This document shows, in pieces, positions 45,258 through 62,900 of a stretch of 64,000 nucleotides of DNA; the stretch's first letter is position 1; every line of letters starts with the position of its first letter. The notes under the pieces were generated by a model. It ran no database searches, was not told the origin of the DNA, and was given only the letters and a program-made list of their open reading frames with translations. The translations under genes were made by a program, and so were the position numbers. Location: contig NZ_AGBX01000007.1 of the NCBI RefSeq assembly GCF_000225825.1, positions 248,001 through 312,000 of the forward strand, given 5' to 3'. This stretch comes from Brachybacterium squillarum M-6-3. GTDB lineage: Bacteria; Actinomycetota; Actinomycetes; Actinomycetales; Dermabacteraceae.

Positions 45258-46688
45258 GTGTTCAACAATCCCAGCGAGGTCGTGAAGTACATCGAGGAGG
45301 AGGGCGTCGAGTTCGTCGACATCCGCTTCTGCGATCTTCCCGGCGTGATGCAGCACTTCAACGTGCCGGCCAGCACGTTCGATGAGGACGCGATGGAGAC
45401 CGGGCAGCTGTTCGACGGCTCCTCGATCCGTGGCTTCCAGGCCATCCACGAGTCCGACATGAAGCTCGTGCCGGACCTGGACACCGCCTACATCGACCCC
45501 TTCCGTGAGCGGAAGACCCTGGTCATCAACTTCTCGATCGTGGACCCCTTCACGGACGAGCCCTACTCCCGCGATCCCCGCACCGTGGCCACCAAGGCCC
45601 AGGAGTACCTCACCTCCACCGGCATCGCGGACACCGCGTTCTTCGCCGCCGAGGCCGAGTTCTACATCTTCGACGACGTGCGGTTCAAGACCAGCATCAA
45701 CTCGGGCTTCTACCAGATCGACTCGGACGAGGCGGTGTGGAACACCGACCGCGACGAGTCCGAGTTCGGTGGCAACCAGGGCTACAAGACCCGCGTCAAG
45801 GGCGGCTACTTCCCGGTGCCCCCGAACGACCAGATGGCCGATCTGCGCGACGAGGTCTGCGCGATCCTGGACTCGGTCGGCCTCGAGGTCGAGCGCGCCC
45901 ACCACGAGGTCGGCACCGCCGGTCAGCAGGAGATCAACTACAAGTTCAACACCCTGCTGAACGCCGCCGACGACGTCATGAAGTTCAAGTACATCGTGAA
46001 GAACACGGTGTGGGAGGCCGGCAAGACCGCCACCTTCATGCCCAAGCCCCTGTTCGGCGACAACGGCTCGGGCATGCACACCCACCAGTCGCTGTGGAAG
46101 GACGGCGAGCCGCTGTTCTTCGACGAGCGCGGCTACGGCGGCCTGTCTGATATCGCCCGCTGGTACATCGGCGGCCTCATCGAGCACGCCCCGGCGCTGA
46201 CCGCCTTCACCAACCCCACGGTGAACTCGTTCAAGCGTCTGGTGCCGGGCTTCGAGGCCCCCGTGAACATGGTCTACTCGGCCCGCAACCGCTCCGCGGC
46301 GATCCGCATCCCGGTCACCGGCTCCTCGCCGAAGGCCAAGCGCATCGAGTTCCGTGCGCCGGACCCGTCCTCGAACCCCTACCTGTGCTTCGCGGCGCAG
46401 CTGATGGCGGGCATCGACGGCATCCGCAACCGGATCGAGCCGCCCGAGCCGATCGACAAGGACCTCTACGAGCTGCCCCCCGAGGAGCACGCGCAGATCA
46501 AGCAGCTGCCGGCCTCCCTCGACGAGGCGCTCACCGCGCTCGAGGCTGACCACGACTTCCTCACCGAGGGCGACGTGTTCCCCGAGGACCTCATCGAGAC
46601 CTGGATCGAGCTGAAGCGCACCACGGAGATCGATCCGTTCCGCTTCCGCCCGCACCCCCACGAGTTCGAGCTCTACTACGACATCTGA
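45258..46688 (+). CDS. glnA: Glutamine synthetase type I, adenylylation-regulated
   Basis: GlnA makes glutamine from glutamate, ammonia and ATP as a dodecamer. 476 residues: [76 protein letters not shown] and the adenylylation site near Tyr404 ([11 protein letters not shown]). I chose the GTG at 45258 ([14 protein letters not shown] follows), which fits the family start and has GGAGGAG just upstream. glnE, which would modify the Tyr, lies 13 kb away beyond an inserted island. The last codons and stop are the attachment core of that island. Confidence 0.97.
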
Positions 46689-46690
46689 GC
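46673..46690 (+). repeat. attL core, overlapping glnA stop
   Basis: CTACTACGACATCTGAGC. It covers the last codons (Tyr-Tyr-Asp-Ile) and stop of glnA, and matches attR at all 18 positions; bases on either side differ. Confidence 0.92.
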
Positions 46691-46757
46691 AACGAGCGTC
46701 CGGGAATGCTTCGCTGACCTGCCTGTTTCTGGGGTGCTGCCTGCACAGTAGCACTCC

Positions 46758-46815
46758 CGTGCAATAGAACCGAGCGGAACCGACTACCATCGGTGTAACG
46801 CACGGTTATTGCACG
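46758..46815. promoter_or_regulatory. Inverted repeat around integrase promoter
   Basis: CGTGCAATA (46758-46766) and TATTGCACG (46807-46815) are a perfect 9-bp inverted repeat flanking the likely integrase promoter. They may be integrase arm sites, an Xis site or a repressor operator. A related TTGCACG occurs at 53096-53102 near attR. Confidence 0.6.
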
Positions 46816-46829
46816 AGCAGGAGGTAGGC

Positions 46830-47984
46830 ATGCCAGCGAAACGGCGACGGACCCGCCGGTCCTTCGGGGCGGTGCGGAAGCTCCCCAGCGGCAGGTACCA
46901 GGCCAGTTACCTGGACCCCGCCGGGAAGCGCCGCACCGCCCCGTCGACGTTCACCGCCAAGGTCGACGCCGACGCCTGGCTGTCCGTGCAACGCGCCGCC
47001 CTAGAGACCGGATCATGGCGCGGCCGCGACGACCGCATGACCGTGGGCGAGTACGCCACGCAGTGGCTCCGCACGCACCAGGTGCGCGAGCGGACCCGCT
47101 ACCACTACAGCGTGCAGGTGGACCGGTGGATCGTCCCCACCTTCGGCACCACCCCGATGGTCGACGTGACCCCCGCGATGGTCCGCAAGTGGCTGGGCAC
47201 CTTCCCCTCGGACAAGCCCGCCGCCCGCGCCAACGCGTACCGCGTCCTGGCGCAGCTGTTCCGGGCCGCGGTGGACGATGGCGTCGTCTCCGAGTCGCCC
47301 GTGAAGGTCCGCGGGGCGGGCCAGTACGAGCGCAAGCGCGAGGGCCACGCCCTGACCGTCCCCGAGGTCCAGCAGCTCGCGGAGAAGGCCCCCGAGGCCC
47401 GCCGCCTGGCGATCCTCCTGGGCGCGTTCTGCGCCCTGCGCCCGGGCGAGGCCCTGGGACTGCGCCGGCGCGACGTGGACACCCGCACGCACGCCCTCAG
47501 CATCCGCGAGACGGCATCGGCGGTGCACGCGAAATCGGGTCGCATCGGCCCGGTCAAGACCGCATCGAGCGTCCGCACCGTCCACTACCCCGCCGAGCTG
47601 CACGACCTCGTGCTGGCTCAGCTGGCAGAGCACGCGGCCGAGGGGCCGATGGGTCACCTGTTCCCCTCCCCCAGGGACGCGGGCCAGCCGCTGTCCTACA
47701 CGGGGTACCTGTACATGTTCCGGCGGGCGGCGGAGGCCGCTGGCCTGGACGATGTGAAGCCGCACGACCTGCGGCACACGGGCGCGACGCTGGCAGCGGC
47801 GACGGGCGCGACAACGAGGGAGCTGATGGCCCGGCTAGGCCACACGTCCCCGCAGGTGGCGATGCGCTACCAGCACGCGGTCCGGGAGCGGGACCAAGCG
47901 ATCGCGGACGCCCTCGGGGCGGCCCTCGCCCCCTCTGTTGGCGCGCAAGTCAGCAGCGAGACGACGGGAGACGATGACCGATGA
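46830..47984 (+). CDS. int: Tyrosine-type site-specific integrase
   Basis: 384 residues: an AP2-like arm-binding start (about 15-60: SFGAVRKLPSGRYQASYLDP), a SAM-like core-binding domain (about 70-165) and the catalytic domain with the first arginine in CALRPGEALGL, the HxxR box PHDLRHTGATL, LGHTSPQVAM and the nucleophile in RYQHA. AGGAGG lies five bases before ATG at 46830. It is next to attL and should recombine the 18-bp core. No terminator separates it from glnA, so read-through is possible. Confidence 0.95.
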   Translation: MPAKRRRTRRSFGAVRKLPSGRYQASYLDPAGKRRTAPSTFTAKVDADAWLSVQRAALETGSWRGRDDRMTVGEYATQWLRTHQVRERTRYHYSVQVDRWIVPTFGTTPMVDVTPAMVRKWLGTFPSDKPAARANAYRVLAQLFRAAVDDGVVSESPVKVRGAGQYERKREGHALTVPEVQQLAEKAPEARRLAILLGAFCALRPGEALGLRRRDVDTRTHALSIRETASAVHAKSGRIGPVKTASSVRTVHYPAELHDLVLAQLAEHAAEGPMGHLFPSPRDAGQPLSYTGYLYMFRRAAEAAGLDDVKPHDLRHTGATLAAATGATTRELMARLGHTSPQVAMRYQHAVRERDQAIADALGAALAPSVGAQVSSETTGDDDR

Positions 47985-48397
47985 GCGGCATGCAGCAGAT
48001 GATGACGGCGGCGCTGGCAGCTGAGCCGGGCGTGCCTGACTTGCTGGACCGGCTGTGCGGGGACACGGGCCGCTCGCCATTGGTCCGCCTCACGTGCAAG
48101 GGGCGCGAGCGCAGGACGCAGCGGCACGACACGGGCGGCACGGTGCGGTTCAAGCGAACCGGTGACGGCTGGACCCTCGCCGGTGGCCGGGACAGCGTGG
48201 CAATGCCCGGCGTGGACTCCGACGGGCGTGTGACGGTGCAGGTGCAGTGCACGGTCTGCGGGACGCCCAAGCTCCGAGCAGGCCGTGAAGCCCTGGAGCC
48301 GATTCTGGGGACACTGGTCGCATGGGAGAGGCGGCGGGACGAGCTGGCGGCGCAGGGCATCACGGACCCCGGAACGGTGCGTGTCGCCTGGCACTGA
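47981..48397 (+). CDS. Hypothetical protein of the element
   Basis: 138 residues, overlapping int by ATGA. The middle is beta-rich (GGTVRFKRTGDGWTLAGG, GRVTVQVQCTVCG). CTVC together with an earlier Cys could be a zinc site, but the spacing is not a recognised motif. The C-terminus is helical (EALEPILGTLVAWERRRDELA). No known family. Confidence 0.65.
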   Translation: MSGMQQMMTAALAAEPGVPDLLDRLCGDTGRSPLVRLTCKGRERRTQRHDTGGTVRFKRTGDGWTLAGGRDSVAMPGVDSDGRVTVQVQCTVCGTPKLRAGREALEPILGTLVAWERRRDELAAQGITDPGTVRVAWH

Positions 48398-48550
48398 GCG
48401 GAACCGACGTATGGTACCGTGAATGCTCCAACGTTCGGCGAGCACGGTCGCCACCAGTACAGGGCCACCAGTAGGTGGAACAGCGGCGCATAGGCGTATC
48501 AGCTCCCGGTGACGTAGCGCAGCATGCGCACATCGCACGGGAGCTTTCTC
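48396..48550 (+). promoter_or_regulatory. Promoter region of xis-replication operon
   Basis: This 155-base gap begins with GAGCGGAACCGAC (48396-48408), identical to a 13-bp motif upstream of int (46772-46784), and is followed by GGTACCGTGAAT, which contains a possible -10. A GGGAG ribosome binding site for the next gene is at its end. Confidence 0.5.
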
Positions 48551-48754
48551 ATGCCTGAGACCCTGACAGGCCGGTACGTCACGCAGACGGCCGCGGCCGA
48601 GTACCTGAACGTCACCGGCCGCACGATTCGCAACCTCATCGCCCGCGGCGACCTCACCGGATACCGCCTCGGAGCCCGCTCCATCCGCGTTGACCGCGCG
48701 GAGCTGGACGCCCTGCTCACCCCCATCCCAACGGCGGGGGTGGAGAACCGGTGA
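48551..48754 (+). CDS. xis: Excisionase-type helix-turn-helix protein
   Basis: 67 residues forming one MerR/Xis-like winged helix: YVTQTAAAEYLNVTGRTIRNLIARGDLTGYRLGARSIRV. Proteins of this size and fold next to tyrosine integrases direct excision or act as early regulators. ATG at 48551 is preceded by GGGAG; an upstream ATG at 48524 is less likely. Its stop overlaps the GTG of the next gene. Confidence 0.82.
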   Translation: MPETLTGRYVTQTAAAEYLNVTGRTIRNLIARGDLTGYRLGARSIRVDRAELDALLTPIPTAGVENR

Positions 48755-49350
48755 CGATCACACAGGAAAGCCGCCCCGGTGGTCAGACCGAGGCGGCACG
48801 AGACACCCGTAGCACTCACCCCCAGGATACCCGCCCGGGGTCTCCCACGCCCATCCCCACGCTGATCGACGTCGCCACCCTCGATACCCGCGAGGCCGCC
48901 GTCACCGGGGCACTGATCCACGCCTCCCACGCGGACGTGATCACCACCCTGGACACCATCACCCCCGCGGACGTCACCAGTGCCCCTCTGCGGGCCGTTC
49001 TCCGCACCATCGGGCTCCTGGCCCGCCGTGGGGACGCTGTGGCCGTGACGGCCCTCGGAGGGGCCGCGCAGGCCGCAGGGATCATCCGGCCCGTGGACCG
49101 GCAACGGTTCGACACCCTCGTGATCGACCTGTCCGGTGTGGATGCCTGCCCCCGCGGTGCCGGTGACCTCGTGCTCGTGCCCGAGCTGATCGAGGCCACC
49201 ACTCGCCGCCGCGCCATCGAGCACGCGACTCGCATCCGGCAGGCCGTGGACGAAGGTCCGGCCGATGGCCTGGTGCTGGTGCTGCGGGACGCTGCGAGGG
49301 CACTGGAGGACGACGCGGCCCGCCTGGACGCGCAGGGGGTGACCGCATGA
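48751..49350 (+). CDS. DnaB N-terminal-domain-like protein
   Basis: 199 residues. After a disordered Thr/Pro/Arg start, residues about 45-115 (REAAVTGALIHASHADVIT, ITPADVTSAPLRAVLRTIGLL, GDAVAVTALG) follow the pattern of the helical N-domain of replicative DnaB helicases, which binds primase and loader. No ATPase domain is attached; the next gene supplies one. It starts GTG and overlaps both neighbours. Confidence 0.65.
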   Translation: MTITQESRPGGQTEAARDTRSTHPQDTRPGSPTPIPTLIDVATLDTREAAVTGALIHASHADVITTLDTITPADVTSAPLRAVLRTIGLLARRGDAVAVTALGGAAQAAGIIRPVDRQRFDTLVIDLSGVDACPRGAGDLVLVPELIEATTRRRAIEHATRIRQAVDEGPADGLVLVLRDAARALEDDAARLDAQGVTA

Positions 49351-50678
49351 CCACCCCACTGGACACCGCTGGCGACTGGTGCGACGAGCACGCCGTCCCT
49401 ACGATCGACTGCACCGGCGACCACCAGGGCCGACAGCTCATCGTGCAGCGCGCCAACAGCGTGACGCCCCGCCGTGTCTCCTGGCTCTGGGACGGTCGCA
49501 TCGCGGCAGGCACCCTCTCCCTCCTCGCCGGCGGCGAGGGCCTGGGGAAGTCCACCCTCACCGCGTGGCTGGTCGCCGCGATCACCCGCGGCACGCTCCC
49601 CGGCGACGAGTACGGCGCCCCCCGGTCCGTGATCATCGCGGCCACGGAGGACTCTTGGGAGCACACCCTCGTGCCGCGCCTCATGGCCGCCGGGGCCGAC
49701 CTCTCCCGCGTGCTACAGGTAGACGTCCAGACCAGCGACGGGTTCATCACCGGCCTTTCCCTGCCCAAGGACATCGAGGCCCTGGCCGACCTCGCCCGCG
49801 TCGAGGGCGTGGCCCTGCTCGTGCTCGACCCGATCATGTCGCGCCTGGAGGGTCTGGACACGCACAAGGACTCCGAGGTGCGCCGTGCCCTGGAGCCCCT
49901 GGTGAAAGCCGCCGACGTCGCGCGCATGGCCGTCCTGGGCCTGATCCACGTCAACAAGAGCGGTGCCGCGGACCCGCTGCGGGCCCTCATGGGCTCCCGC
50001 GCCTTCCCTGCGGTCGCCCGCTCGGTGTCCACCGTCGTCGCGGACCCCGAGGACGAGGACGACCGTCGCCGCCTGTTCGGCACCGTGAAGAACAACCTCG
50101 GGCCGATCAGCCCGTCCTCGGACGTGTTCACCGTAGCCACCGCCACGGTGCCTTCCCTGGACGGGCCGATCAGCACGGGACTGCTGGAGTGGCACGGCTC
50201 CGTGGACACCACCGTGAAGGCCGCGATGGCCGACGCGGCCGCCGGGGGCGGCATGGAGACCCGCGGCGCGCTAGCCGAGGCGTGTGAGTGGCTGCGGGAT
50301 TACCTGGACGCGTGCCCCGGCGAGCAGCGTCAGATCGTCATCCGCGAGGGCCAGAAGGAGGGGCACAGCCTCCCCACCATCAAGCGGGCAGCGCACCGGC
50401 TCGGAGTCGTGTCGGTACGGAAGGGTGGACAACCCCCGAGGTCGCTGTGGTCCCTCCCGGCTGAACCCAACGGCTCAAGCCCTGGGGAGAGTGTGTGTAT
50501 TGAACCTATGGAGCCTATGGGCTCTGACCTGCAGGTTCGATCGGCTCAGAGTGGCTCCATTGGCTCAATGGGTCCAAGGGATCAACGCCCCCTAGAGCTT
50601 GAACCGATGGCCGAGGACCTCTGCCCTGGCTGCGGTGACCCGGCCTGCACCGGCGAGTGCGACGGGGGCCTGGCATGA
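49347..50678 (+). CDS. RecA-fold ATPase, probable replication helicase of the element
   Basis: 443 residues. Walker A GGEGLGKST (about 62-70), Walker B LLVLDPIM, a Q-loop-like HVNKSG and AVARSVSTVVADPED match the RepA/AAA_25 type of hexameric helicase found on plasmids, phages and satellites. A helix-turn-helix-like segment follows (about 320-360) and a low-complexity Met/Glu/Pro/Ser/Gly stretch (about 385-410). The end holds CPGCGDPACTGEC, a possible metal knuckle. It overlaps the DnaB-N-like gene upstream and the WhiB-like gene downstream. Confidence 0.82.
   Translation: MTTPLDTAGDWCDEHAVPTIDCTGDHQGRQLIVQRANSVTPRRVSWLWDGRIAAGTLSLLAGGEGLGKSTLTAWLVAAITRGTLPGDEYGAPRSVIIAATEDSWEHTLVPRLMAAGADLSRVLQVDVQTSDGFITGLSLPKDIEALADLARVEGVALLVLDPIMSRLEGLDTHKDSEVRRALEPLVKAADVARMAVLGLIHVNKSGAADPLRALMGSRAFPAVARSVSTVVADPEDEDDRRRLFGTVKNNLGPISPSSDVFTVATATVPSLDGPISTGLLEWHGSVDTTVKAAMADAAAGGGMETRGALAEACEWLRDYLDACPGEQRQIVIREGQKEGHSLPTIKRAAHRLGVVSVRKGGQPPRSLWSLPAEPNGSSPGESVCIEPMEPMGSDLQVRSAQSGSIGSMGPRDQRPLELEPMAEDLCPGCGDPACTGECDGGLA
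50499..50569. repeat. Imperfect inverted repeat array inside the ATPase gene
   Basis: ATTGAACCTATGGAGCC (50499-50515) matches the reverse complement of 50553-50569 at 15 of 17 bases. Additional GGCTC/GAGCC copies lie between and beside them. The stretch is less GC-rich than its surroundings. It encodes the EPMEPMGS-like low-complexity region, and could also be an origin-type iteron cluster. Confidence 0.65.
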
Positions 50679-50932
50679 GCAACAGCCTCGGTGTCCCCGA
50701 GCACGCCCTCACCGCATGGCGAGCCCTCCACGACCGCATCACCGCTACCGGCCCCACCCCCTGCACCGGGGCCGACGCGGACCGGTGGAACGGCACCACC
50801 GCCGAGCAGCGTTGGGCCGCCGGCCGATGCATCGACTGTCCAGCCCTGATCCAGTGCGGCACCTACGCGGACACAGCCGGGGAACGGCACGGCGTCTGGG
50901 GCGGCACCCCGCGGACGGGGGCGAACCGATGA
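50675..50932 (+). CDS. WhiB-like iron-sulfur protein
   Basis: 85 residues with the WhiB cysteine pattern: one Cys in PTPCTG, then 21 residues, then CIDCPALIQC (C-x2-C-x5-C), followed by the family turn GVWGG. WhiB proteins bind a 4Fe-4S cluster and regulate transcription with the major sigma factor. Phage-borne members can alter host regulation and cause superinfection immunity (known for mycobacteriophage TM4). It overlaps both neighbours by ATGA. Confidence 0.88.
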   Translation: MSNSLGVPEHALTAWRALHDRITATGPTPCTGADADRWNGTTAEQRWAAGRCIDCPALIQCGTYADTAGERHGVWGGTPRTGANR

Positions 50933-51111
50933 GCACCACCCCCAGCGCCCCGCGCGTCACCCCCTACTGGTGGAACCGCCTCCAGGTGGACGCCGAACCC
51001 GGAGCGCTCATCACCACCCGCGGCCGGTCCCTGTTCATCCCCGCCGACCAGCTGCGGGCCATCGCGGACGGCCTGCACGACATCGCCGACGACCTGGAGG
51101 CCACACCATGA
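50929..51111 (+). CDS. Small hypothetical protein
   Basis: 60 residues, translationally coupled on both sides by ATGA. It reads TPYWWNRLQV, ITTRGRSLFIPADQLRAIADGLHDIADDLEA: a short beta part and a C-terminal helix. It resembles small adaptor or regulator proteins of phages but has no recognised family. Confidence 0.6.
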   Translation: MSTTPSAPRVTPYWWNRLQVDAEPGALITTRGRSLFIPADQLRAIADGLHDIADDLEATP

Positions 51112-51194
51112 CCGGCCAGGCAACAGCGAGGGCACCACCATCCCCGCCCCCGCCTCCGACATCTCAATCACTCCTGAGCAGAAAGGCTCACCCC

Positions 51195-51932
51195 ATGAAG
51201 AACACGAACAGCTACCAGGCCGCCTACCTCACCTACCGGGCGGCACTCATCGAGTCGGCGAAGCTGCACGATCCCCGCCTCACCCCCGAGGCGAACCAGG
51301 CCGAGCGGTACCAGGCCCGCGTCAAGGCCCGGCAGGCCCTCCGAGCAGCCGTGCCCGAGCGGGTCACCGGCCCCGACCCCGTCGAGGCCGTCCTCGCCAC
51401 CCTCGCCCCCCGCACCGCCGACGACATCGCCGTGCAGGGCCGGGAACGGCAGAAGGTCGAGACGCTGCTGGACAACGACCGGAACCTCCTCGCCATCGTG
51501 GACGCCGCCACGGAGACCCGCTGCGCGGTGATCCTGGACATGCTGGAGACCAGTCCCCGTGTCCTCGCGTCCGCCGACCCCGAGGGCGCACAGGTCGAGG
51601 TCCGCGCCCGCGTCATGGACCGGCTCACCGCGCTGGGCCACGACGGTGCTCAGAAGGCCCAGGAAGTCGCCCAGGAGCGTGCGCTCGTCAACGCCTGGGC
51701 CGACGTCCTCGAGGCCACCGCAGACGGCCAGGAACCCGGCTACGGGCCCCGCGCGACCCTGTTCCAGGCCGACCACGACGGATACGCCGCCACCCTCGGG
51801 ATGCGGCCCAATGCGGACGACGCCCGCACCCTGTCCGACGCCGACCGGACCGTCCACAACGACGCGATCCGCGAGCAGGCCAACGCCCGCACCGCGGGAC
51901 AGGACACGGGACTCATGGAGGCGGGACAGTGA
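51195..51932 (+). CDS. Hypothetical helical protein of the element
   Basis: 245 residues, nearly all helix and rich in Ala, Glu and Arg, with heptad-like stretches (ERQKVETLLDNDRNLLAIVD, RVMDRLTALGHDGAQKAQE). No known domain. ATG at 51195 has AAAGG nine bases upstream; an ATG at 51108, overlapping the previous stop, would add a 29-residue Pro/Ser-rich start. It directly precedes the small-terminase-like gene, a place where phages often keep head or packaging accessories. Confidence 0.65.
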   Translation: MKNTNSYQAAYLTYRAALIESAKLHDPRLTPEANQAERYQARVKARQALRAAVPERVTGPDPVEAVLATLAPRTADDIAVQGRERQKVETLLDNDRNLLAIVDAATETRCAVILDMLETSPRVLASADPEGAQVEVRARVMDRLTALGHDGAQKAQEVAQERALVNAWADVLEATADGQEPGYGPRATLFQADHDGYAATLGMRPNADDARTLSDADRTVHNDAIREQANARTAGQDTGLMEAGQ

Positions 51933-52333
51933 AGGCCTCCAGCCGCGCCGAGCGCGAGCAGCGGGACGCCCGCATCGTGCAGTCCCTCGCCGCTGGGGCG
52001 ACCATCCGGCAGGCCGCCGACACGCACGGCGTGTCCCGGATGACCGCGCACCGGGCCCTGGAGAACGCGAAGGGCGTCCTCCCCGAGGCGCAGCACGCCC
52101 GGGACCTCATGCTGGCCCGCTTCCAGATGTACCGGCTGCGGCTGTTCCCGCTGCTGTCCACGGACCCCGTGCGGGCCGTGCCGCGACTGCTGGAGGTGGA
52201 CACGACCGAGGCGAAGATGCGCGGCTACTTCGAGCCCGACCGTGACGACGGCACCGCGGAGGCGTCGGGCATGCTCGCCGGCTTCATCGCGGGCCTGGCC
52301 GATCAGCGCGACCGCGAGAGGGGGCAGCGATGA
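51929..52333 (+). CDS. Helix-turn-helix protein resembling phage small terminase subunit
   Basis: 134 residues. An N-terminal helix-turn-helix (ARIVQSLAAGATIRQAADTHGVSRMTAHRAL) is followed by a helical part RDLMLARFQMYRLRLFPLL ... AVPRLLEVDTTEAKMRGYFEPD. The same plan (HTH, then a helical Leu/Arg stretch, then a lysine/arginine-rich R-hLGL-like end) is common in actinophage proteins beside large terminases. It starts GTG, overlapping the upstream stop. Alternative: a simple regulator. Confidence 0.6.
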   Translation: MKASSRAEREQRDARIVQSLAAGATIRQAADTHGVSRMTAHRALENAKGVLPEAQHARDLMLARFQMYRLRLFPLLSTDPVRAVPRLLEVDTTEAKMRGYFEPDRDDGTAEASGMLAGFIAGLADQRDRERGQR

Positions 52334-52611
52334 GGGGCATCATGCGCATGTGGCGGCACCTCCTCGCCCGCATCGTGCCGCACCAGCCCGCGTCTGAGGA
52401 CCCGGTGCAGAAGTGGCGGCGCTTGCTGGCCGAGGTCGAGGCCGAGCAGGCCGTCTGCGAGGACGTGGAGCGGGCCGGTGAGCTGGACGGCGCGGCCATG
52501 CTGCTGCGCAGCGTCCTGTTCCAGGAGGACTTCACCCTGTCCCCGGACGATGAGGTGTTCTTCCGGCAGGCCCGCGGCTACCGGCAGATGTGCGCCCTCA
52601 TGGACGCCTGA
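52330..52611 (+). CDS. Hypothetical protein
   Basis: 93 residues, overlapping the previous gene by ATGA. Basic start (MWRHLLARIVPHQP), then an acidic helix (KWRRLLAEVEAEQAVCEDVERAGELDG) and a C-terminal helix. No known motif. It is the last gene of the long plus-strand operon and is followed by a terminator. Confidence 0.55.
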   Translation: MRGIMRMWRHLLARIVPHQPASEDPVQKWRRLLAEVEAEQAVCEDVERAGELDGAAMLLRSVLFQEDFTLSPDDEVFFRQARGYRQMCALMDA

Positions 52612-52633
52612 CGGGCCCTGAGCGTCCACGGCG

Positions 52634-52669
52634 ACGGCCCCCGCACCCCGAGTTGGGTGTGGGGGCCGT
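52634..52669 (+). terminator. Terminator of the element operon
   Basis: A 15-bp GC-rich stem ACGGCCCCCGCACCC / GGGTGTGGGGGCCGT with a 6-base loop lies between convergent genes, followed on the plus strand by TCGTCTGTCTG. It can serve both. Confidence 0.8.
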
Positions 52670-52688
52670 TCGTCTGTCTGTGGGCCTG

Positions 52689-53048
52689 TCAGCGGTCTGC
52701 ACGGGGCGACTGGACGCACCCCCACACCTCAGCGTCCACGGGATGGTGGTGGCCGATGCACCGAGGGTCGGGGCATCCGCACACGTCGCCGCCGGGCAGG
52801 GTGTCCGTGGCGCCGTGGGCGTCGATCCATGCCGCCCGCTCCGGGGTGGCGTCCAGGTGTGCGGCGGCCACGGCATCCCAGAACGCGGGCCCGTGGACCT
52901 GCTGGGCGTAGCCCTGGGCGTGGACACCGAGCACGGCGTCCGCAATGGCGTCCACGTCATAGCTGCTGGTGTCGTCGTGTCCGTCGAGGGTGAGGGCAGG
53001 GAGGATCAGGGAGTCGATGGCGTCGCGGCGGGTGGTGTAGGTGGTCAT
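52689..53048 (-). CDS. Hypothetical protein next to attR
   Basis: 119 residues, the only minus-strand gene of the element. The N-terminal half is helical (DAIDSLILPALTLDG, DVDAIADAVLGVHAQGYAQQ). The C-terminus has a Cys/His cluster (CGCPDPRCIGHHH) that could bind metal. GGAAGG precedes ATG at 53048. Proteins beginning like this occur in actinobacterial prophages; function unknown. Its separate promoter and position at the edge are typical of a cargo gene. Confidence 0.65.
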   Translation of the reverse strand: MTTYTTRRDAIDSLILPALTLDGHDDTSSYDVDAIADAVLGVHAQGYAQQVHGPAFWDAVAAAHLDATPERAAWIDAHGATDTLPGGDVCGCPDPRCIGHHHPVDAEVWGCVQSPRADR

Positions 53049-53138
53049 GGCGGGTGCCTTCCGAGGGGTGTTGACGGTTCGGGAGCGCACGCTAGTTGCA
53101 CGCTCCTGCATTTCCCCAGGTGAAAGACACGCCGTGCA

Positions 53139-53156
53139 CTACTACGACATCTGAGC
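53139..53156 (+). repeat. attR core
   Basis: CTACTACGACATCTGAGC, identical to attL. The sequence after it (from 53157) should be the original region downstream of glnA. Confidence 0.92.
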
Positions 53157-53199: not shown

Positions 53200-53235
53200 G
53201 GCCCCCGTCCTGCCTCGCGCGGGGCGGGGGCCTTT
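53200..53235 (+). terminator. Probable native glnA terminator, displaced by the element
   Basis: GGCCCCCG (53200-53207) pairs with CGGGGGCC (53225-53232), extended by CC/GG with a one-base bulge, and is followed by TTTCC. It lies 44 bases beyond the attR core, which would be 44 bases after the glnA stop in an empty site. Confidence 0.65.
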
Positions 53236-53450: not shown

Positions 53451-54452
53451 CTAGGTGTAGTTGGCCATGACGTTACCGACGCCGGTGTGGAGGCGTGAGG
53501 CTGGGGGCTGATCGCTGCAGGCGGTGTGGGGGCGATGGTAGTCGTAGTGGTGGACCCAGATCCTGATCGCGTCTCGCCGCTCATTCTCGGAGGCATAGGC
53601 GCGGGCGTAGAGGCATTCGTCGGTCATGATCCGCTGGTAGCGCTCGACCTTCCCGTTGTGCCGAGGCGTGTAGATCCTGGTGCGCTGGTGCCGGCCGATG
53701 AACGCCCTGGTTGAACGTCGGAACGCTTTGGCGGTGTAGTTGCTGCCGTTGTCGGTGATCAGGCGGGAGATTCGCGTGATCCCGTGGGCGGTGAAGAATG
53801 CCCGGGCGCGGTGGAAGAACGCGATGGTCGTTGCGGCAGTTTCGTCCTCGAGTGCTTCGGTGTAGGCCAGGCGGGAGAACCCGTCGATGATCGAGTGGAG
53901 GTAGGTGTAGCCAATCCGCTGCGAGTGCTTCTTCTTGTCCTGCACGGAACCGCGGCCATGCGCCCACCAGCCCCCGCCGTCGCGGAGCTTGCCGATCTTC
54001 TTCACGTCCATGTGGACCATGTGCCCGGGATACCGGGCGTGGATCTTCCCTGGTCGACGCAGGTTCTCTCCGTCCGGGGTGATGTCTCGGATCCGGTTCA
54101 ATCCCAGGCGGTCCAGCCAGCGAGTCACCGTCCGCACGCAGCATGCGAAGCCGTGGCCGTCGGTGAGTTCGCGGGCGATCCGGCGGGCGGACCACTTCTT
54201 CTCTCGCCGCCAGGACTCGATCAGCTCGAGCACCCAGACCGGGAGCCGGGTGGGTCGGTTCGCTGGCGCGCTGGAGCGGTCCTGCAGACCGAGCTCGCCG
54301 TGCTCGCGGAAGCGGCCGACCCATTTCGAGAGCGTCGTTCGGGCGATGTGGAACTCCGCGGCGACGTGCGCGATCGGACGGCCTCTCTCGATCACCTGGT
54401 CGATGGCTCGCTGTCTCCCAAGCGTCGTCAGCGGGGCATTACGGTGGGTCAT
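53451..54452 (-). CDS. IS481 family transposase
   Basis: 333 residues: an N-terminal helix-turn-helix (about 15-60: AAEFHIARTTLSKWVGRFREHG), a second HTH region, and the rve-type DDE catalytic core with Asp in HMDVKKIGKL, Asp in LITDNGSNYTAKAF and Glu in NGKVERYQRI. The last codon and the TAG stop use bases of the CCTAGG target copy, so the gene is completed only by insertion at such a site. AGGAGG precedes the ATG. Confidence 0.93.
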   Translation of the reverse strand: MTHRNAPLTTLGRQRAIDQVIERGRPIAHVAAEFHIARTTLSKWVGRFREHGELGLQDRSSAPANRPTRLPVWVLELIESWRREKKWSARRIARELTDGHGFACCVRTVTRWLDRLGLNRIRDITPDGENLRRPGKIHARYPGHMVHMDVKKIGKLRDGGGWWAHGRGSVQDKKKHSQRIGYTYLHSIIDGFSRLAYTEALEDETAATTIAFFHRARAFFTAHGITRISRLITDNGSNYTAKAFRRSTRAFIGRHQRTRIYTPRHNGKVERYQRIMTDECLYARAYASENERRDAIRIWVHHYDYHRPHTACSDQPPASRLHTGVGNVMANYT

Positions 54453-54521
54453 GGAACGGGCCTCCTGCCGCGAGATGGCTGTCTAGACACCACCCATCGT
54501 GCCGGTCACGGGGCCCGTTCC
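54453..54521 (-). promoter_or_regulatory. Fold-back repeat next to transposase start
   Basis: GGAACGGGCC (minus strand, 54521-54512) pairs perfectly over 10 bp with GGCCCGTTCC (54462-54453), which touches the AGGAGG and the ATG. A message entering from outside the element could hide its ribosome binding site this way. Confidence 0.5.
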
Positions 54522-54564
54522 TTCATCCCCGGCCAGCGTCTACAACGTCATGCCCCGCAACACC

Positions 54565-54570
54565 TAGGGT
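54565..54570 (+). promoter_or_regulatory. -10 box of AraC gene, rebuilt at IS boundary
   Basis: TAGGGT ends six bases before ATG at 54577. Its first four bases are the right CCTAGG copy of the IS target duplication, and the last two are flanking DNA. Confidence 0.45.
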
Positions 54571-54576
54571 GGGTGC

Positions 54577-55374
54577 ATGCCCGTCTGGCAGCCAGCTATC
54601 CCGCAAGGGTTGCGCCCCCATCTCCTTTCCTGGGTGGGGTACGACTTCACCAGTACCGACACCGTCCACCACGGGGTTCCCTCGATGGGCGTCACGGTGG
54701 TGCTGTCCCTCGCAGAGCCGATCGACTGTGGCTGGCTTCATGGCGGCGCGCGGCAGCTCTGTGACGTACTTGTCTCCGGCTTGCACACTACTCCGGCTCT
54801 GATCCAGTCGAGGGGACGCCAGCAGGGCCTCGAATTGTCGCTCCACCCGCTCTCGGCCCGTCGGCTTCTCGGGCTGCCGGCCGGGGAACTGGCCGGCTCG
54901 ATGGTTGATGTGAATGATCTCTCGTGGCCCGGGCACCAGCTCGACCAGCTGCGACAGTCAACGTGGCCACGACGGTTCCACCTCTTGGCGGCATTCCTCA
55001 CCAAGAGGCTGGAGCAGCATCCTCATGCACCGCGCGCAGACCTGGTCGAGGCACTCGCGCGGATCCATCGGACCCGAGGCACGATCCCCATCTCCGGCCT
55101 GGCTCAGGACGTTGGCCTGTCCAGACGGCGGCTCTCAAGCCTGTTCGACCTCGAGACCGGTCTCTCGCCCAAGCAGGTGGCGCGCATCGCTCGCTTCACC
55201 CACGCCAAAGACTTGGTCCAGCGTGGCGCCCAGCCCTCGAACGTCGCGGCGATGGCCGGCTACAGCGACCAACCGCACCTGTCCCGGGAATGGAAGTCGA
55301 TGACTGGATGGACGCTGCGCCAGTCGAAGGACGATTTCCCATTGCTTCAAGACACCGACATGCTTCCGGCGTGA
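54577..55374 (+). CDS. AraC-family transcriptional regulator
   Basis: 265 residues. The C-terminal 100 residues form the double helix-turn-helix: ISGLAQDVGLSRRRLSSLFDLETGLSPKQVARIARF and SNVAAMAGYSDQPHLSREWKSMTGWT. The N-terminal part (SWVGYDF, LSLAEPIDCG) is like the sensor domain of DUF6597-type regulators. A VOC protein gene follows after 10 bases. Lower GC and looser codon use than the core genes suggest transfer. An IS481 copy now sits at its promoter. Confidence 0.85.
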   Translation: MPVWQPAIPQGLRPHLLSWVGYDFTSTDTVHHGVPSMGVTVVLSLAEPIDCGWLHGGARQLCDVLVSGLHTTPALIQSRGRQQGLELSLHPLSARRLLGLPAGELAGSMVDVNDLSWPGHQLDQLRQSTWPRRFHLLAAFLTKRLEQHPHAPRADLVEALARIHRTRGTIPISGLAQDVGLSRRRLSSLFDLETGLSPKQVARIARFTHAKDLVQRGAQPSNVAAMAGYSDQPHLSREWKSMTGWTLRQSKDDFPLLQDTDMLPA

Positions 55375-55384
55375 GGCTAGAGCC

Positions 55385-55771
55385 ATGACGACACCACAGC
55401 TGTTCCACTGCCTGCGCTATACAGACGCCGATCGAGGCATCGACTTCCTCCAAGCCATCGGCTTCACCACCGCCATGATCGTGCGGGATCCTGATGACGC
55501 GACCTTGGTGGCCCATGCGCAACTTGCCTGGCGCGACAACGGGGGCATCATGCTCGGCTCTGTTCGGGACGATGACCCGCATTACGGGCCGGGGATCTGC
55601 AACCTGGTGGTCGCCAGTGATGAGGACGTGGACAGCCTCTTCGCCGCAGCCCTGGCACACGGCGCGACCACCGTCACGGAGCCCAACGACGCCCCCCACG
55701 GAGGGCGCAACGCATGTGTCGCTGACTTCGATGGCCACTGGTGGAACCTCGACTCCTACCCGGGAGCCTGA
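55385..55771 (+). CDS. VOC (glyoxalase/bleomycin-resistance) family protein
   Basis: 128 residues with the paired beta-alpha-beta-beta-beta modules of the VOC fold: LFHCLRYTDADRGIDFLQAIGF at the start and FAAALAHGATTVTEPNDAPHGGRNACVADFDGHWWNL at the end. PhnB/YraH-like members of this kind have no assigned substrate. Co-transcription with the AraC regulator suggests the regulator controls it; this pair recurs in actinobacteria. Confidence 0.83.
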   Translation: MTTPQLFHCLRYTDADRGIDFLQAIGFTTAMIVRDPDDATLVAHAQLAWRDNGGIMLGSVRDDDPHYGPGICNLVVASDEDVDSLFAAALAHGATTVTEPNDAPHGGRNACVADFDGHWWNLDSYPGA

Positions 55772-55819
55772 GCCGGGGAACGCCCCTCGACACCGTCATG
55801 TGCCACGGCTCACGAGTTC

Positions 55820-56896
55820 GTGCACATCTCAATGAGCCCTGACCCACACAATTTCGCCGCCCGCGGCGGCAACTGGCCTTCCTGGGCGGCGCATGCCCCC
55901 AGGAAGGCCTCGTCATGTCCCACGCGAACGCCGCTCTCACCCCTCGCCACCGCCTGATCGTCGGCCGCTTGGTCGTCGATGACGGCTGGCCGATCAGCGA
56001 GGTCGCCGCCAGGTTCCAGGTCTCCTGGCCCACGGTGAAGCGCTGGGCCGACCGCTACCGCACCGGCGAGCCAATGCAGGACAGGTCATCCAGGCCGCAT
56101 CACTCACCGAACAAGACCAACCAGCAGACTGCCAGGCGCTGCGTCCGTCTTCGCCTGCAACTACGGGAGGGGCCGGTGCAGTTGGCCAGCCGACTTGGGA
56201 TAGCCCCGTCCACGGTCCACCGCATCCTTACAGACGTGCACTTGAACCGGCTGTCGCACGTCGACCGCGCCACGGGAGAACCGGTCCGCCGTTACGAGCA
56301 CGATCACCCGGGGTCGATGCTGCACGTCGACGTGAAGAAGCTCGGCAACATTCCCGACGGCGGAGGATGGCGCTACGTCGGGCGGCGAAAGGGCGACAAG
56401 AACCGGGCCGCTACACCCGACAAGCCGAAGAACAAGCACTACGACCCGTTGATGGGCAAGGCTTACGTCCATACCGTCCTCGACGACCACTCCCGCGTCG
56501 CCTATGTCGAGATCCACGACGACGAAACCGCCCGCACTGCCACCGCCGTGCTGGTCCGAGCCGTCGAGTGGTTCAACGCCCGCGGCGTCACCGTCGAGCA
56601 GGTCCTGTCCGACAACGGCGGCGCGTACCGCTCACACCTGTGGCGCGACACCTGCGCCGAACTCGGTATCCGGCACAAGCGCACCCGGCCCTACAGGCCG
56701 CAGACCAACGGGAAAATCGAGCGCTTCCACCGCACCCTGGCCGACGGATGGGCTTACGCCCGCTGCTACACCTCCGAAGCCGAACGACAGTGCGAGCTGG
56801 ACGACTGGCTGCACTACTACAACCATCACCGGCCGCACACGGCCTTCAGGAACCTCCCGCCCTTCTCGCGATTGATCAACGTCTCCGGGCAGTACA
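55820..56896 (+). mobile_element. Second IS481-family element, without target duplication
   Basis: About 1077 bp. The right end is ...CAGTACA at 56896 by comparison with the other copies (TGTACTG inward). The left end is placed near 55820 (GTGCACATCTCAATGAGCC) and is uncertain by some bases. Neither flank is CTAG, so at least one junction was changed after insertion. Confidence 0.65.
55875..55909 (+). promoter_or_regulatory. Hairpin covering the transposase ribosome binding site
   Basis: A perfect 12-bp stem GGCCTTCCTGGG / CCCAGGAAGGCC. The right arm contains AGGAAGG, the ribosome binding site for the ATG at 55915. A read-through transcript would have its start blocked. Confidence 0.6.
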
Positions 56897-57204
56897 CCGC
56901 GACGGAGCGTGGTGGACATTCGAGATTCCAGCGCTCACCTCCGTCAGCTCCGCCACCGGCAAGACGATCGTCGCCACGGGGCAGGCGCGACGCGCTGAGG
57001 ACCTCGCCCGAGAGGCGCGAGACGTCATCGATCTGTGGAGCGACGATCCTGATATCGACGTCCGGGTCAACTACTCGCTGCCTGCCGAGGTGGCGAGGGC
57101 CGTCGACACTGCCGCCGAACGTGAGGCGACGGGGCGTGCCGCGCTGGACGAGGCCGCCGCGCTTCGTCGCCGCGCCGTCCACGAGCTCCTCGCGCAGGGC
57201 CTGA
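55915..57204 (+). CDS. IS481 family transposase, reading on into host DNA
   Basis: 429 residues, of which about 327 belong to the element. HTH start (SEVAARFQVSWPTVKRWADRY), then the DDE core: Asp in HVDVKKLGNI, Asp in VLSDNGGAYRSHLW, Glu in NGKIERFHRTL. A normal copy ends GQYT-stop, with TAG from the target. Here the target is missing and the frame runs another 100 residues through a HicB-like gene in the wrong frame. The tail may impair activity. Confidence 0.85.
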   Translation: MSHANAALTPRHRLIVGRLVVDDGWPISEVAARFQVSWPTVKRWADRYRTGEPMQDRSSRPHHSPNKTNQQTARRCVRLRLQLREGPVQLASRLGIAPSTVHRILTDVHLNRLSHVDRATGEPVRRYEHDHPGSMLHVDVKKLGNIPDGGGWRYVGRRKGDKNRAATPDKPKNKHYDPLMGKAYVHTVLDDHSRVAYVEIHDDETARTATAVLVRAVEWFNARGVTVEQVLSDNGGAYRSHLWRDTCAELGIRHKRTRPYRPQTNGKIERFHRTLADGWAYARCYTSEAERQCELDDWLHYYNHHRPHTAFRNLPPFSRLINVSGQYTATERGGHSRFQRSPPSAPPPARRSSPRGRRDALRTSPERRETSSICGATILISTSGSTTRCLPRWRGPSTLPPNVRRRGVPRWTRPPRFVAAPSTSSSRRA

Positions 57205-58798: not shown

Positions 58799-59716
58799 TC
58801 AGGCGATCTGGTCGAGCCCGCCCTTGGCGCGCAGCAGGCTGAGCAGCAGCGCCTTCGGGTCCTTCGCGGCGTCCAGCGCGCAGTCCTCGGGCACGAAGCC
58901 CCAGGCGCTGCGCAGGGACCGGAACACCTCGAACTCGGCATCGGTGGTGCGCAGCGGCACCGCCGCGTAGCCGCCCTTCTCGGGCAGGTGGATCACGAAG
59001 GCGCCGGTCACCTCCGGCATCGGGCGCTGGGTGCCGTCGTCGTCCAGCAGCTGCTCGGCGCGGGTCACCGCGACGCCCTGCAGGGCGTAGTCGCCGCGCA
59101 CCTTCTTGGAGGTCTTGATGTCGGCCGAGAGCACCGTGTTGCCGATCCGCACGATCGCGTCGGTGGTGCCGGCGTAGCCCACGGAGTGGTTCACGACGGT
59201 CTGCTCGATCTCCAGGAACTCCGGCTGGAAGTCGTCGAGGAAGGCGGCATAGCCGTCCAGCCGCACCGCGGCCCGGTCCAGGATCCCCTCCATGTCCTGC
59301 TCGGCAGCGAACGCCCCGGAGGCGGCGCGCATCTCCGCGGCCCGCTCCCCCACCTGCTCGCGGCGGGGCCGCTCCCCCGCCCGGGCCCAGTCCTCGCAGG
59401 CGGCGTGGACCAGGGTGCCGAAGTCCGCGGCGCCGCGGGTGTACTCCTCGGCGGCGGCGGCGATGCGCTTCTGGGTGCCCCAGCGGTCGCGGGAGACGCG
59501 GGAGATCTCCGCGGCGGCCCGCTGCGGGTTCCGGTCCAGCCAGGCGTACATGTCCAGCGCCCGCTTCGAGGCCATCGTGGCGTACCAGCCCTGCAGGTGG
59601 TCCTTGGCGCGCATCCCGGCGACGGTGGTGATCGAGGGCAGCAGCATTGGGCCCTCGGGCTCGAGGCGATACATGCGGCCGCGGGGGGTGTCGGCGCTCA
59701 GGCTGGGGGTGGTCAT
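58799..59716 (-). CDS. PD-(D/E)XK superfamily nuclease-like protein
   Basis: 305 residues. The order of motifs is that of RecB/Cas4-type nucleases: FGTLVHAACEDWARAG, then EIEQTVVNHSVGYAGTTDAIVRI (metal Asp), then VLSADIKTSKKVRGDYALQ (D-x-K and the motif IV Tyr/Gln). All expected catalytic residues are visible. The substrate could be DNA or RNA. It is downstream of glnE and separated from it by a long hairpin. Standing alone with no helicase or Cas partner, it may act in repair. Confidence 0.78.
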   Translation of the reverse strand: MTTPSLSADTPRGRMYRLEPEGPMLLPSITTVAGMRAKDHLQGWYATMASKRALDMYAWLDRNPQRAAAEISRVSRDRWGTQKRIAAAAEEYTRGAADFGTLVHAACEDWARAGERPRREQVGERAAEMRAASGAFAAEQDMEGILDRAAVRLDGYAAFLDDFQPEFLEIEQTVVNHSVGYAGTTDAIVRIGNTVLSADIKTSKKVRGDYALQGVAVTRAEQLLDDDGTQRPMPEVTGAFVIHLPEKGGYAAVPLRTTDAEFEVFRSLRSAWGFVPEDCALDAAKDPKALLLSLLRAKGGLDQIA

Positions 59717-59919: not shown

Positions 59920-62900
59920 TCAGGTGCCGGGGAACAGGACCCGCTCGGCGACCGTGCGGGCGCGGCGGGTGAGCTTGCGATAGCGCTCCTCGACCTCCGT
60001 GGCCGAGGCCTCATCGCCCTCCAGCAGGGTGGCCAGCGCGCGCAGGTCGTTGCGGTCCGAGGGCAGCACGGCGCCCTCCTTGCCCTTCCACAGGAACAGG
60101 GCGCGGCGCACCTGCCAGGCCAGGGACCAGGCCTCGGCGAGCTCGCGCACCTCGTGGTGCTCGAGCAGTCCGGCCTCATCGATCGCGGTGAGGGCCGCGA
60201 GGGTGGTGGGGGTGCGCAGCGCCTCGACCTCGTGCCCGTGCTCCAGGGCGAGCAGCTGCACGGTCCATTCGACATCGGTCATGCCGCCACGGCCGAGCTT
60301 CAGGTGCCGCGTGGGGTCGGCGCCGCGGGGCAGCCGCTCGGACTCCACCCGCGCCTTCATCCGGGAGATCTCCCTGCGGGCCGTCTCCGACAGGCCCCCG
60401 GCCGGGTAGCGGTGCCGGTCCATCTCGGCGGTGATCCGTTCGGACAGCTCGGCGGAGGCCACCACCGGGCGGGCGCGCAGCAGGGCCTGCTTCTCCCAGG
60501 TGAGGGCGTCGCGCCGGTAGTAGTCGATCCAGCCGTCCAGGCTGCGGGCCAGCAGGCCGTTGCGGCCCTCGGGGCGCAGATCCGCGGAGAGCTTCATGTC
60601 GGTGCCGGCGGCGGGGGCGTTCAGCAGCTGCTGCAGGGTGGTGGCGACCTCCCCGCCGATGGCGGTGGTGTCCGTCCCGGCGCCGTGGTCGATGGCCAGG
60701 AACTGCACGTCCGCATCGGAGGAGTAGCCCATCTCGCGGGCGCCGAAGCTGCCCATCGCGATGACGGCCAGCTCGATGCCCAGGGCCCGCGCGGGATCGG
60801 AGCGGTTCTCGCGGATCCGCTCGGCGGTCTCCTCGTCCACCTCGGTCGCGCCGTCCAGGGTGGGGGCGTCCCGGGGGATCAGGCCGCGCTCCCGCGCCAC
60901 CTGGTGGTAGGCGACCAGGGTGCCGGCCTCGAGCACCGCCTCGGCGAGGTCGGTGAGGGCGGCGGCGACCTGCTCGGAGGTCACCGCCCCGGTCAGGTGC
61001 GCCAGGGACACCCGCAGCAGCTCCCGGGTGCGGGTGCGGCGCAGCACGTCGCGGGCCGCGTCCACGGTCTCCACCCGGCGGATGACCGCGAGGAACTCGC
61101 GGGCCAGGGCGTCGCGCGACAGCGGCCTCAGCTCCTCGTCGCGGGAGAGCCAGCGCACGGCCTCGGGGATCTGCTCGAGCTGCTCCCCGGCGAAGCGGCT
61201 GGCGGAGAGAACATGGGTGAGGCGGCGGGCGGCGACGCCGGAGTCGCGCAGCATCCCCAGGTACCAGTGGGCCGAGCCGATCCGATCGGAGATCCGGCGG
61301 AACATCAGCAGTCCCAGGTCCGGGTCGATGCCTTCGGCGAACCATTCCAGCAGGGCCGGCAGCAGCTGGCGCTGGATGGAGGCGCGGCGGGAGATGCCCT
61401 CGGTCAGCGCGGTGATGTGCCCGAGCGCCCGGGCGCCGTCGCGGTAGCCGATCGCGGCCAGGCGCGCGGCGGCCGACTCGGGGCTGAGCGCGATCTCCCC
61501 GTCGCTGAGCTGGGAGGAGGTGACCAGCAGCGGGCGGTAGAAGATCTCCTCGTGCAGCTGACGCACCCGGCGCCGGGTGGTCTGGTAGCGGGAGGCGAAG
61601 TCCTTGCTGGACAGGCCCAGCGAGCGGGCGAGGCGCCGCTGGTCGGCCTCGGCGGTGGGCAGCACCTGGATGCGGCGCAGACGCTGCATCTGCATGCGGT
61701 GCTCCACGCTGCGCAGGAAGCGGTAGGCGTCGTCCATCTCCCCCACGTGGCGGCGGGAGATGTAGCCGCCCTCCCCCAGCCGGGCCAGGGACTCCAGGGT
61801 GGTGCGGGTGTGCAGGGTGTCGTCGGTGCGGCCGTGGACCATCTGCAGCAGCTGCACGGTGAACTCGACGTCGCGCAGACCACCGGGGCCGAGCTTGATG
61901 TTGCGGTCGGCCTCCCCGCGGGGGATGTGCGCGATGACGCGGCGGCGCATCGCCCGGGTGTCCTCCACGAAGCTGTCGCGGGTGGAGGCCTGCCAGATCC
62001 AGGGCTCCACCATCGCCTCGTACTCCTCGCCGAGGGACCGGTCCCCGGCGGCGGCGCGGGCCTTCAGCAGCGCCTGGAACTCCCAGGAGTGCGCCCACTT
62101 CGTGTAGTAGCGGCGGTAGGAGTCCAGGGTGCGCACCAGCGGCCCGTCCTTGCCCTCCGGGCGCAGGTTCGCATCGACCTGCCACAGGGAGCCCTCGGCG
62201 GTGCGGTCCGAGCAGATCCGGGCCAGCTCCCGGGCCAGGGCCGAGCCGACGGTGACCAGCTCTTCCTCGTCGCAGGCGGGACCGTCCTGCCCCTCGGCGG
62301 GGGCGACCACGTGCATCACGTCGACGTCGGAGATGTAGTTGAGCTCCTGGGCGCCGGTCTTGCCCATGGCGATGACGCTCCAGCGGACGTGCTCCTGGCC
62401 CTCGACGGCGGCGCGTGCCAGGGCCGCGGCGGCGTCGAGGGCGGCGTCGGCGAGGTCGGAGATGGCGCGGGAGACGGCGGGCTGGATCGCGGTGGGCTCG
62501 GCGGCGACGACGTCGGCGGCGGCGATCTGCACCAGCCGCGCGTGGTAGGCGATGCGCAGGGCGTCGCGGCCCTCGCGGCCCTCCAGGCCGGCCACCGGCA
62601 CGGCCGACTCCGGGTCGGCTCCGACGGCCCGCACCAGGTCGGCCCGCACCTCGACGGCGCTGCGGCGCAGCTCGTCGTCGCCCTGCTGCAGCACCTCCAG
62701 GCTCTCGGGGTGCCGGGCGAGGAAGTCGCCGAGGGCCACCGAGGTGCCCAGCAGCCGCACCAGCCGGTGCCCGGGCCCGCCGCGCTCGGCGATCCCGGCG
62801 AGGAAGGGGCGCAGCAGGGCGCGCTGCCCCTTCTCCTCGGCGGCCTCGGCCAGGCGCAGCAGCCCCATCAGGGCGTCGTCCCCGTCGGCGGTGGCGCCGA

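Follow-up and report, generated by a model that had tools for sequence, protein, structure and literature searches.

A 6.5-kb element integrated at the glnA stop codon of Brachybacterium squillarum is probably a minimal phage satellite

What kind of mobile DNA lies between glnA and a second copy of its stop codon in Brachybacterium squillarum M-6-3? The locus was analysed in a stretch of 64,000 nt (hereafter the window; contig NZ_AGBX01000007.1, positions 248,001-312,000), in which an exact 18-bp repeat, CTACTACGACATCTGAGC, occurs at 46673-46690 and 53139-53156, in two copies only on both strands of the whole window, and bounds an element of 6,466 bp. There is very little doubt that this element integrated site-specifically at the glnA 3' end. 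Judged by its genes, the element is best explained as a minimal phage satellite resembling phage-inducible chromosomal islands (PICIs) and phage-inducible chromosomal minimalist islands (PICMIs), with a probability of roughly two in three (0.68), because it carries a gene similar to those of small terminase subunits (terS) and yields no match to capsid, large terminase (TerL) or FtsK families. The boundaries are as follows.

45258..46688, plus strand: glnA, type I glutamine synthetase (TIGR00653, 670.9 bits), whose 3' end is attB/attL
46673..46690, plus strand: attL core, 18 bp, exact repeat
53139..53156, plus strand: attR core, exact repeat
53200..53232, plus strand: hairpin found by folding, read as the displaced glnA terminator (short T run, no flag in the terminator scan)

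The attL copy covers the last four sense codons of glnA and the stop codon, followed by GC. The GlnA product is unaltered by the insertion, and all four occupied glnA copies found in Brachybacterium (the genus, hereafter) terminate in ...LYYDI*. A preliminary description of this DNA had proposed an element of about 6.47 kb (46673..53156) at this place, flanked by a perfect repeat spanning the glnA stop codon and leaving the gene product intact, all of which agrees with our measurements and with the parallel insertions and empty sites presented below. It had also named as an objection the recurrence of the 18-mer away from an integrase; no third exact copy exists in the strain's own genome. Since exact repeats of such length are not rare (the window holds 16 families of at least 18 nt, CTACTACGACATCTGAGC among them, and 20 simulated windows gave 0-4 repeated 18-mers each), we place weight on the location at the glnA stop codon, the adjoining integrase gene and the recurrence in relatives. 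The features that define a tyrosine-integrase element, namely direct repeats that reproduce the end of the target, an integrase gene beside attL and an empty site in relatives, are all present. Hairpins were seen by eye, uncounted, directly 3' of glnA in many empty-site genomes, and glnA's own hairpin terminator is read as now lying 6.5 kb downstream, so that read-through into the integrase gene would be possible. A promoter scan found none (0.2 expected); a terminator scan gave three against 0.9 expected, each of them on the minus strand, with none at the left end of the element or at the hairpins at 52634..52669 and 53200..53232.

Relatives were examined in samples of 38 genus genomes (own genome included), 47 family genomes and 396 order genomes. 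The genus genomes are readable past the glnA stop codon in 36 of 38 cases, the exceptions being G031, where the contig ends, and G030, where the glnA end was unmatched. A related integrase gene directly follows glnA in four of these 36 (the window, G037, G028 and G002). CTACTACGACATCTGAGC is present in 15 of the 38: the own genome has two copies and 14 others have one each, G037 being the occupied one among these. Beyond attR in the window stand a 305-aa gene (58799-59716) and glnE (59920-63027). These also follow the empty glnA of G018 and G007, where the 305-aa gene begins 152 and 88 bp away, respectively, with a match to glnE behind it; in G010 and G022, the 305-aa gene comes second, behind one small gene. 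Similarly, the ferredoxin-like gene opening the right flank of the G037 element has a homologue standing first after the empty glnA in G014, G004, G027 and G008 and second in G026. In G029, G016, G010 and G022, alignments of a query joining both flanks of the window element run on for 21-26 nt beyond the junction (88-90% identity over whole alignments); in other genomes they end nearer to it, and the intergenic DNA has therefore diverged. The uninterrupted site expected by the preliminary description is thus found as a single copy of the 18-mer and as post-attR genes following empty glnA, while continuity at the nucleotide level is modest, spanning those 21-26 nt.

Between attR and the 305-aa gene and glnE, at 53451-57204 of the window, two transposase-type genes flank genes for an AraC-like regulator and a VOC/glyoxalase-like protein (by eye). 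Insertion of the element by these transposase-like genes was rejected, as they lie outside attR (53451 onward) and leave the repeats at the glnA stop codon unexplained.

The G037 element spans about 6.76 kb, with an exact attL, 17 of 18 positions at attR and a gene order similar to that of the window. Its DNA is 80% identical to that of the window element in the first 2.7 kb and 67% identical in a stretch of 1.4 kb in the right module, and the int, orf138, xis, orf60, orf245 and terS frames are open in both. The two ends of the G028 element, of about 11.57 kb, share a core of 17 bases, or 21 bases with the AGCT that precedes each copy. About 70 bp at the right end are conserved, at 78% identity to G037 and 68% to G028. 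No attR was found for G002 in the 12.9 kb read, with up to 4 mismatches allowed. Integrase identity to the window is 86% for G037, 76% for G028 and, over query residues 2-192, 74% for the truncated G002 integrase. The cargo of the G028 element (L060 8309-11074) is of restriction type, with Mrr_cat_2 (6e-43), a Type ISP C-terminal domain over two open reading frames (ORFs) and HNH. A defence library gave restriction-type matches there, a PDC-S13 match (9e-9) for one G014 orf and no match for the five window ORFs given.

Degraded remnants resembling the C-terminal part of a tyrosine integrase were also seen on the opposite strand just after glnA (loci L032, L025 and L039), at a distance of about 50-190 bp in G009 and G024, whereas the one in G012 is weak; a similar opposite-strand remnant lies right of attR in G028 (L060 about 12510-12610). 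These short remnants match no integrase family in PHROGs; the one longer relative found, with 41% identity over 29 residues (E 9e-4), is a 379-aa integrase-like protein (by eye) encoded at another place in G012. Thus glnA may be a hotspot for two integrase lineages.

The integrase and the sites it may bind are these:

46758..46764, minus strand: inverted half arm motif (CGTGCAA)
46800..46815, plus strand: putative left arm-type site, GCACGGTTATTGCACG, with a similar site in the left ends of 6/6 related integrase loci (window included)
46830..47984, plus strand: tyrosine integrase (PF00589 3.2e-18, PF14659, phrog_1 6.4e-67)
53087..53102, plus strand: putative right arm-type site, GCACGCTAGTTGCACG, starting 52 bp before the core

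Residues R204, K243, R315, H338 and Y347, which we take to be the catalytic residues of the tyrosine integrase family, are invariant in the five aligned rows; H312 is not. The element has one copy of the 16-bp motif GCACGnTnnTTGCACG close to either end (at 46800 and 53087), the 64 kb containing no other, and these copies are read as putative arm-type sites of the integrase. In the window, G037 and G028 alike, exactly 52 bp separate the start of the right copy from the core, with one change to the motif in G028, and the left copy recurs with small changes in G037, G028, G002, G036 and G014.

Integrase matches at a cut-off of E 1e-30 were found in 7 of the 47 family genomes, all Brachybacterium. 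In a tree of 18 integrases, the six Brachybacterium rows form a clade (100/100) in which G028 and G002 (glnA) stand beside the window and G037 (glnA) together with G036 and G014 (97/93). The G014 element, of about 10.2 kb, lies at the stop codon of gpmA (named by eye): its 14-bp repeat AGGGCAAGAAGTGA ends in the stop codon and recurs downstream before a hairpin, at 5435-5448 and 15663-15676 of the joined contig stretch L064+L101. Near the G036 integrase gene the contig ends, and a tad-type gene precedes it (by eye). Among the 12 outgroup rows, two lie beside a tRNA gene found by ARAGORN (G264a, tRNA-Thr; G034, tRNA-Ser) and seven have an upstream T-arm-like sequence by eye (G383, G181, G406, G264b, G223, L120 and, weaker, L107), while none was seen by eye upstream of L108, L110 and L121. 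As outgroup integrases are thus mostly at tRNA-like sites and clade members at glnA or gpmA, the clade likely changed from tRNA genes to stop codons of protein genes. A scan of genome contigs with the integrase alignment gave 20 loci, three of them Brachybacterium; the same contigs gave no match to a single integrase query, and viral contigs none to the integrase, orf245 or TerS.

The remaining features of the element are listed below.

47981..48397, plus strand: orf138, kept in G037 (family searches, comparison with G037)
48551..48754, plus strand: excisionase/AlpA-type HTH_17 protein, xis (PF12728 3.1e-9, TIGR01764 5.8e-12)
48751..49350, plus strand: orf199, no family in Pfam, PHROGs, NCBIfam or the defence library
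49347..50678, plus strand: AAA_25 ATPase, primase/helicase-like replication protein (PF13481 3e-26, phrog_10729 4.6e-43)
50675..50932, plus strand: WhiB-like regulator (PF02467 4e-7), uncalled in G037
50929..51111, plus strand: orf60, common to the G037 and G008 elements (element comparison)
51195..51932, plus strand: orf245, all-helical protein beside the terS-like or another HTH gene, in 3/38 genus and 6/396 order genomes (model pLDDT 88.9)
51929..52333, plus strand: probable small terminase subunit (terS), HTH_23, with homologues (E 3e-12 and 6e-12) in two prophages, where they precede TerL
52330..52611, plus strand: orf93 (family searches, G037 comparison)
52634..52669, plus strand: strong hairpin 3' of the plus-strand genes (inverted repeat I7, fold; no T run, no flag in the terminator scan)
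52689..53090, minus strand: orf133; the G037 and G008 elements likewise end in a small minus-strand orf, a positional likeness

That everything between the repeats is of integrase, excisionase or replication type, as the preliminary description had it, is right for the integrase, the excisionase HTH protein and the AAA_25 ATPase, and leaves out further genes including the terS-like gene (51929-52333) and orf245 (51195-51932). The ATPase is about 33% identical to part of phage primase/polymerases. Families of capsid, portal, TerL and FtsK gave no match in the element ORFs searched (10 against Pfam, 10 against PHROGs and 9 against NCBIfam). Like a PICI, the element has a replication gene (AAA_25) and xis (HTH_17) of its own by homology, and the scanned ORFs include no structural or lytic phage gene.

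The product of the gene at 51929-52333 is probably a small terminase subunit. A profile built from two satellite HTH_23 proteins (cut-off E 1e-6 or better) matched 5 of the 396 order genomes, a sample that seemingly excludes G028 and G014, since neither gave a match in another search of it: three matches are in candidate satellites (window, G037 and G008) and two in prophages (G013 and G036). In both prophages the terS-like gene lies upstream of TerL of the same type (81% alike); behind the G013 TerL (PF03237 9e-12, phrog_2 1e-40) come genes for an SPP1-type portal (PF05133) and a major head protein (phrog_212). The terS-like gene of G013 has a homologue in Microbacterium phage DelaGarza, as gene 1, with the terminase as gene 8, and the G008 protein has a weak terminase-small-subunit match (phrog_1482, 0.0017). 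In 6/6 (non-independent) pairs of a satellite and a prophage protein, identity is highest in the C-terminal part (36-61%, against 24-30% for the HTH and 25-30% for the middle), as would be expected if the end docking to TerL was kept. In the two prophages of G014, a different HTH-like gene abuts TerL; phage records gave no match to the window TerS.

Within the genus, orf245 is confined to the window, G037 and G008, and it adjoins a TerS-like or other HTH gene in 6/6 loci read. It has no match in 50,697 phage records and, at the cut-off of E 0.001 used for fold searches, none in BFVD. In G008 (L090 3579-11511), orf60, orf245 and terS recur with another integrase, beside tRNA-Met, and another primase, of phage type, and this part thus behaves as a module. 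In two other genera (L092 8877-10093 and L095 9074-9902), an orf245-like gene is followed by a different HTH gene; tad/pilus-type genes are near (by eye), with no integrase on the near side.

As a satellite, the element would work as follows. The integrase would recombine an attP core with the same sequence as the end of glnA, from its last codons through the stop codon, and GlnA would so be rebuilt unchanged. The HTH_17 protein would aid excision and the AAA_25 protein would drive replication of the circle. The element's small terminase subunit may then steer the large terminase of an incoming helper phage to satellite DNA. Helper particles would carry the packaged DNA into the next cell, and there the integrase would re-insert it at glnA. 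The boundaries, empty sites, parallel insertions, unaltered GlnA, arm-like motifs and gene homologies are direct observations, from which we infer excision, replication, TerS function, packaging and a helper.

Several results weigh against a satellite. One gene in G013 and three in G036 separate the terS-like gene from TerL, the PHROGs label of the TerS-like family (phrog_645) is 'Rnase E' rather than terminase, and the TerS model (pLDDT only 71.5) had no fold match in the PDB. Compared with each other, the two prophage proteins show the same rise in identity (60% in the HTH, 71% in the middle and 82% in the C-terminal part) while the satellite proteins show no such trend, which makes the domain pattern weak support. 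The host genome contains no TerL detectable with a G013-type query (present in 3/38 genomes) or with phrog_2 (11/14 controls positive), and the helper would consequently be an incoming phage. A search for cos or pac sequences shared with four prophages gave many weak alignments and nothing convincing; in that comparison, the sole alignment of interest lay at the 3' end of terS in the G036 prophage, where 3/3 satellites matched. The G028 element has no terS recognised by eye and no orf245 match, the G037 ATPase differs (weak phrog_97 match) with no WhiB gene called beside it, and the G002 copy is broken, with a shortened integrase gene and insertion-sequence-type genes beyond. Finally, at 6,466 bp the element is smaller than PICIs, typically of about 15 kb (available text of PMC6092414).

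Compared with known satellites, the element may be set beside PICMI115 of Vibrio, of 6,110 bp with 17-bp repeats downstream of fis, as the PICMI core consists of int, alpA (PF05930/PF12728) and a primase without capsid-remodelling genes (available text of PMC10803314). Small size, short repeats 3' of a housekeeping gene and int, alpA and primase are shared. However, the host here belongs to another phylum, the site is glnA instead of fis, AAA_25 stands in place of the DUF3987/DUF5906 primase that defines PICMIs along with int, AlpA and proximity to fis, and a terS-like gene is present, whereas the available text identifies no terS in PICMI115 (PMC10803314). With PICIs, including the Staphylococcus aureus pathogenicity islands (SaPIs), it shares int at one end, xis, a replication module, its own att site and the lack of structural and lytic genes, and some PICIs carry terS; its called genes include no divergent stl/rpr-type regulator, unlike those islands as described in part of PMC6092414. 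Candidate mycobacterial PICIs are also actinobacterial, some with tyrosine integrases, but the available text defines them by an integrase and a capsid gene, with three Int-Y examples at tRNA genes (PMC10654092), neither of which applies here.

The actinomycete integrative and conjugative elements (AICEs), of which pSAM2- and pMR2-like elements are named examples, mostly lie at tRNA-like sites. An AICE or mobilizable derivative, moved by conjugation and with the HTH_23 gene as a regulator, is an unlikely alternative that draws on the order int-xis-rep, on the 39% identity of the integrase to that of an 11-kb Micromonospora rosaria plasmid record (NC_006910) and on integrase relatives being mostly at tRNA-like sequence. 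We rejected it because no transfer gene was matched in the scanned ORFs, neither FtsK/TraB, the FtsK/SpoIIIE-type translocase by which AICEs are recognised, nor a relaxase; moreover, the HTH_23 homologues found outside satellites are prophage genes upstream of TerL, and the att site is in a protein gene. Still less probable is the decay of a prophage with loss of its structural genes. It could explain why a terS-like gene of phage type and an ATPase resembling primase-helicases occur without structural genes, but frames open in both the window and G037 at the identities given above, and a right module recurring in G008 with other int and rep genes, look like maintenance instead of decay. A chance or compositional repeat around an unrelated islet has hardly any probability and was rejected, since despite fifteen other exact families of at least 18 nt in the window, a first-order Markov model of it expects 7.5e-9 copies of CTACTACGACATCTGAGC per 10 kb on one strand, and the repeat coincides with a stop codon and int and has parallels beside related integrases in G037 and G028 (glnA) and G014 (gpmA).

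In the literature searched, outside of which most subscription papers fell, no report of glnA as attB was found among the papers listed, nor any of a Brachybacterium prophage and satellite. The preliminary description had called the site uncommon, and this holds in that literature, although one paper names a dusA-type integrase of Rhodobacter sphaeroides ATCC 17029 that is associated with a glutamate-ammonia ligase (available text of PMC4482086). The dusA-associated integrases treated there are likewise specific for a protein-coding gene but belong to another integrase family and replace the 5' end of dusA, while the 3' end of glnA is preserved here (PMC4482086).

Tentatively, and with somewhat less than even confidence, we propose that these elements represent an undescribed Actinomycetota family of terS-bearing mini-satellites, which would pair the satellite-only orf245 with exchangeable small terminases and whose integrase clade would have moved from tRNA genes to stop codons of central metabolism, glnA and then gpmA. 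A clade with conserved arm-like sites and two cores (glnA and gpmA) makes core recognition directly testable, and genetic tools for Brachybacterium might use the glnA site for neutral integration. If the satellite reading is true, a small and simple satellite family would be added for Actinomycetota, and orf245 would be a conserved satellite gene worth attention.

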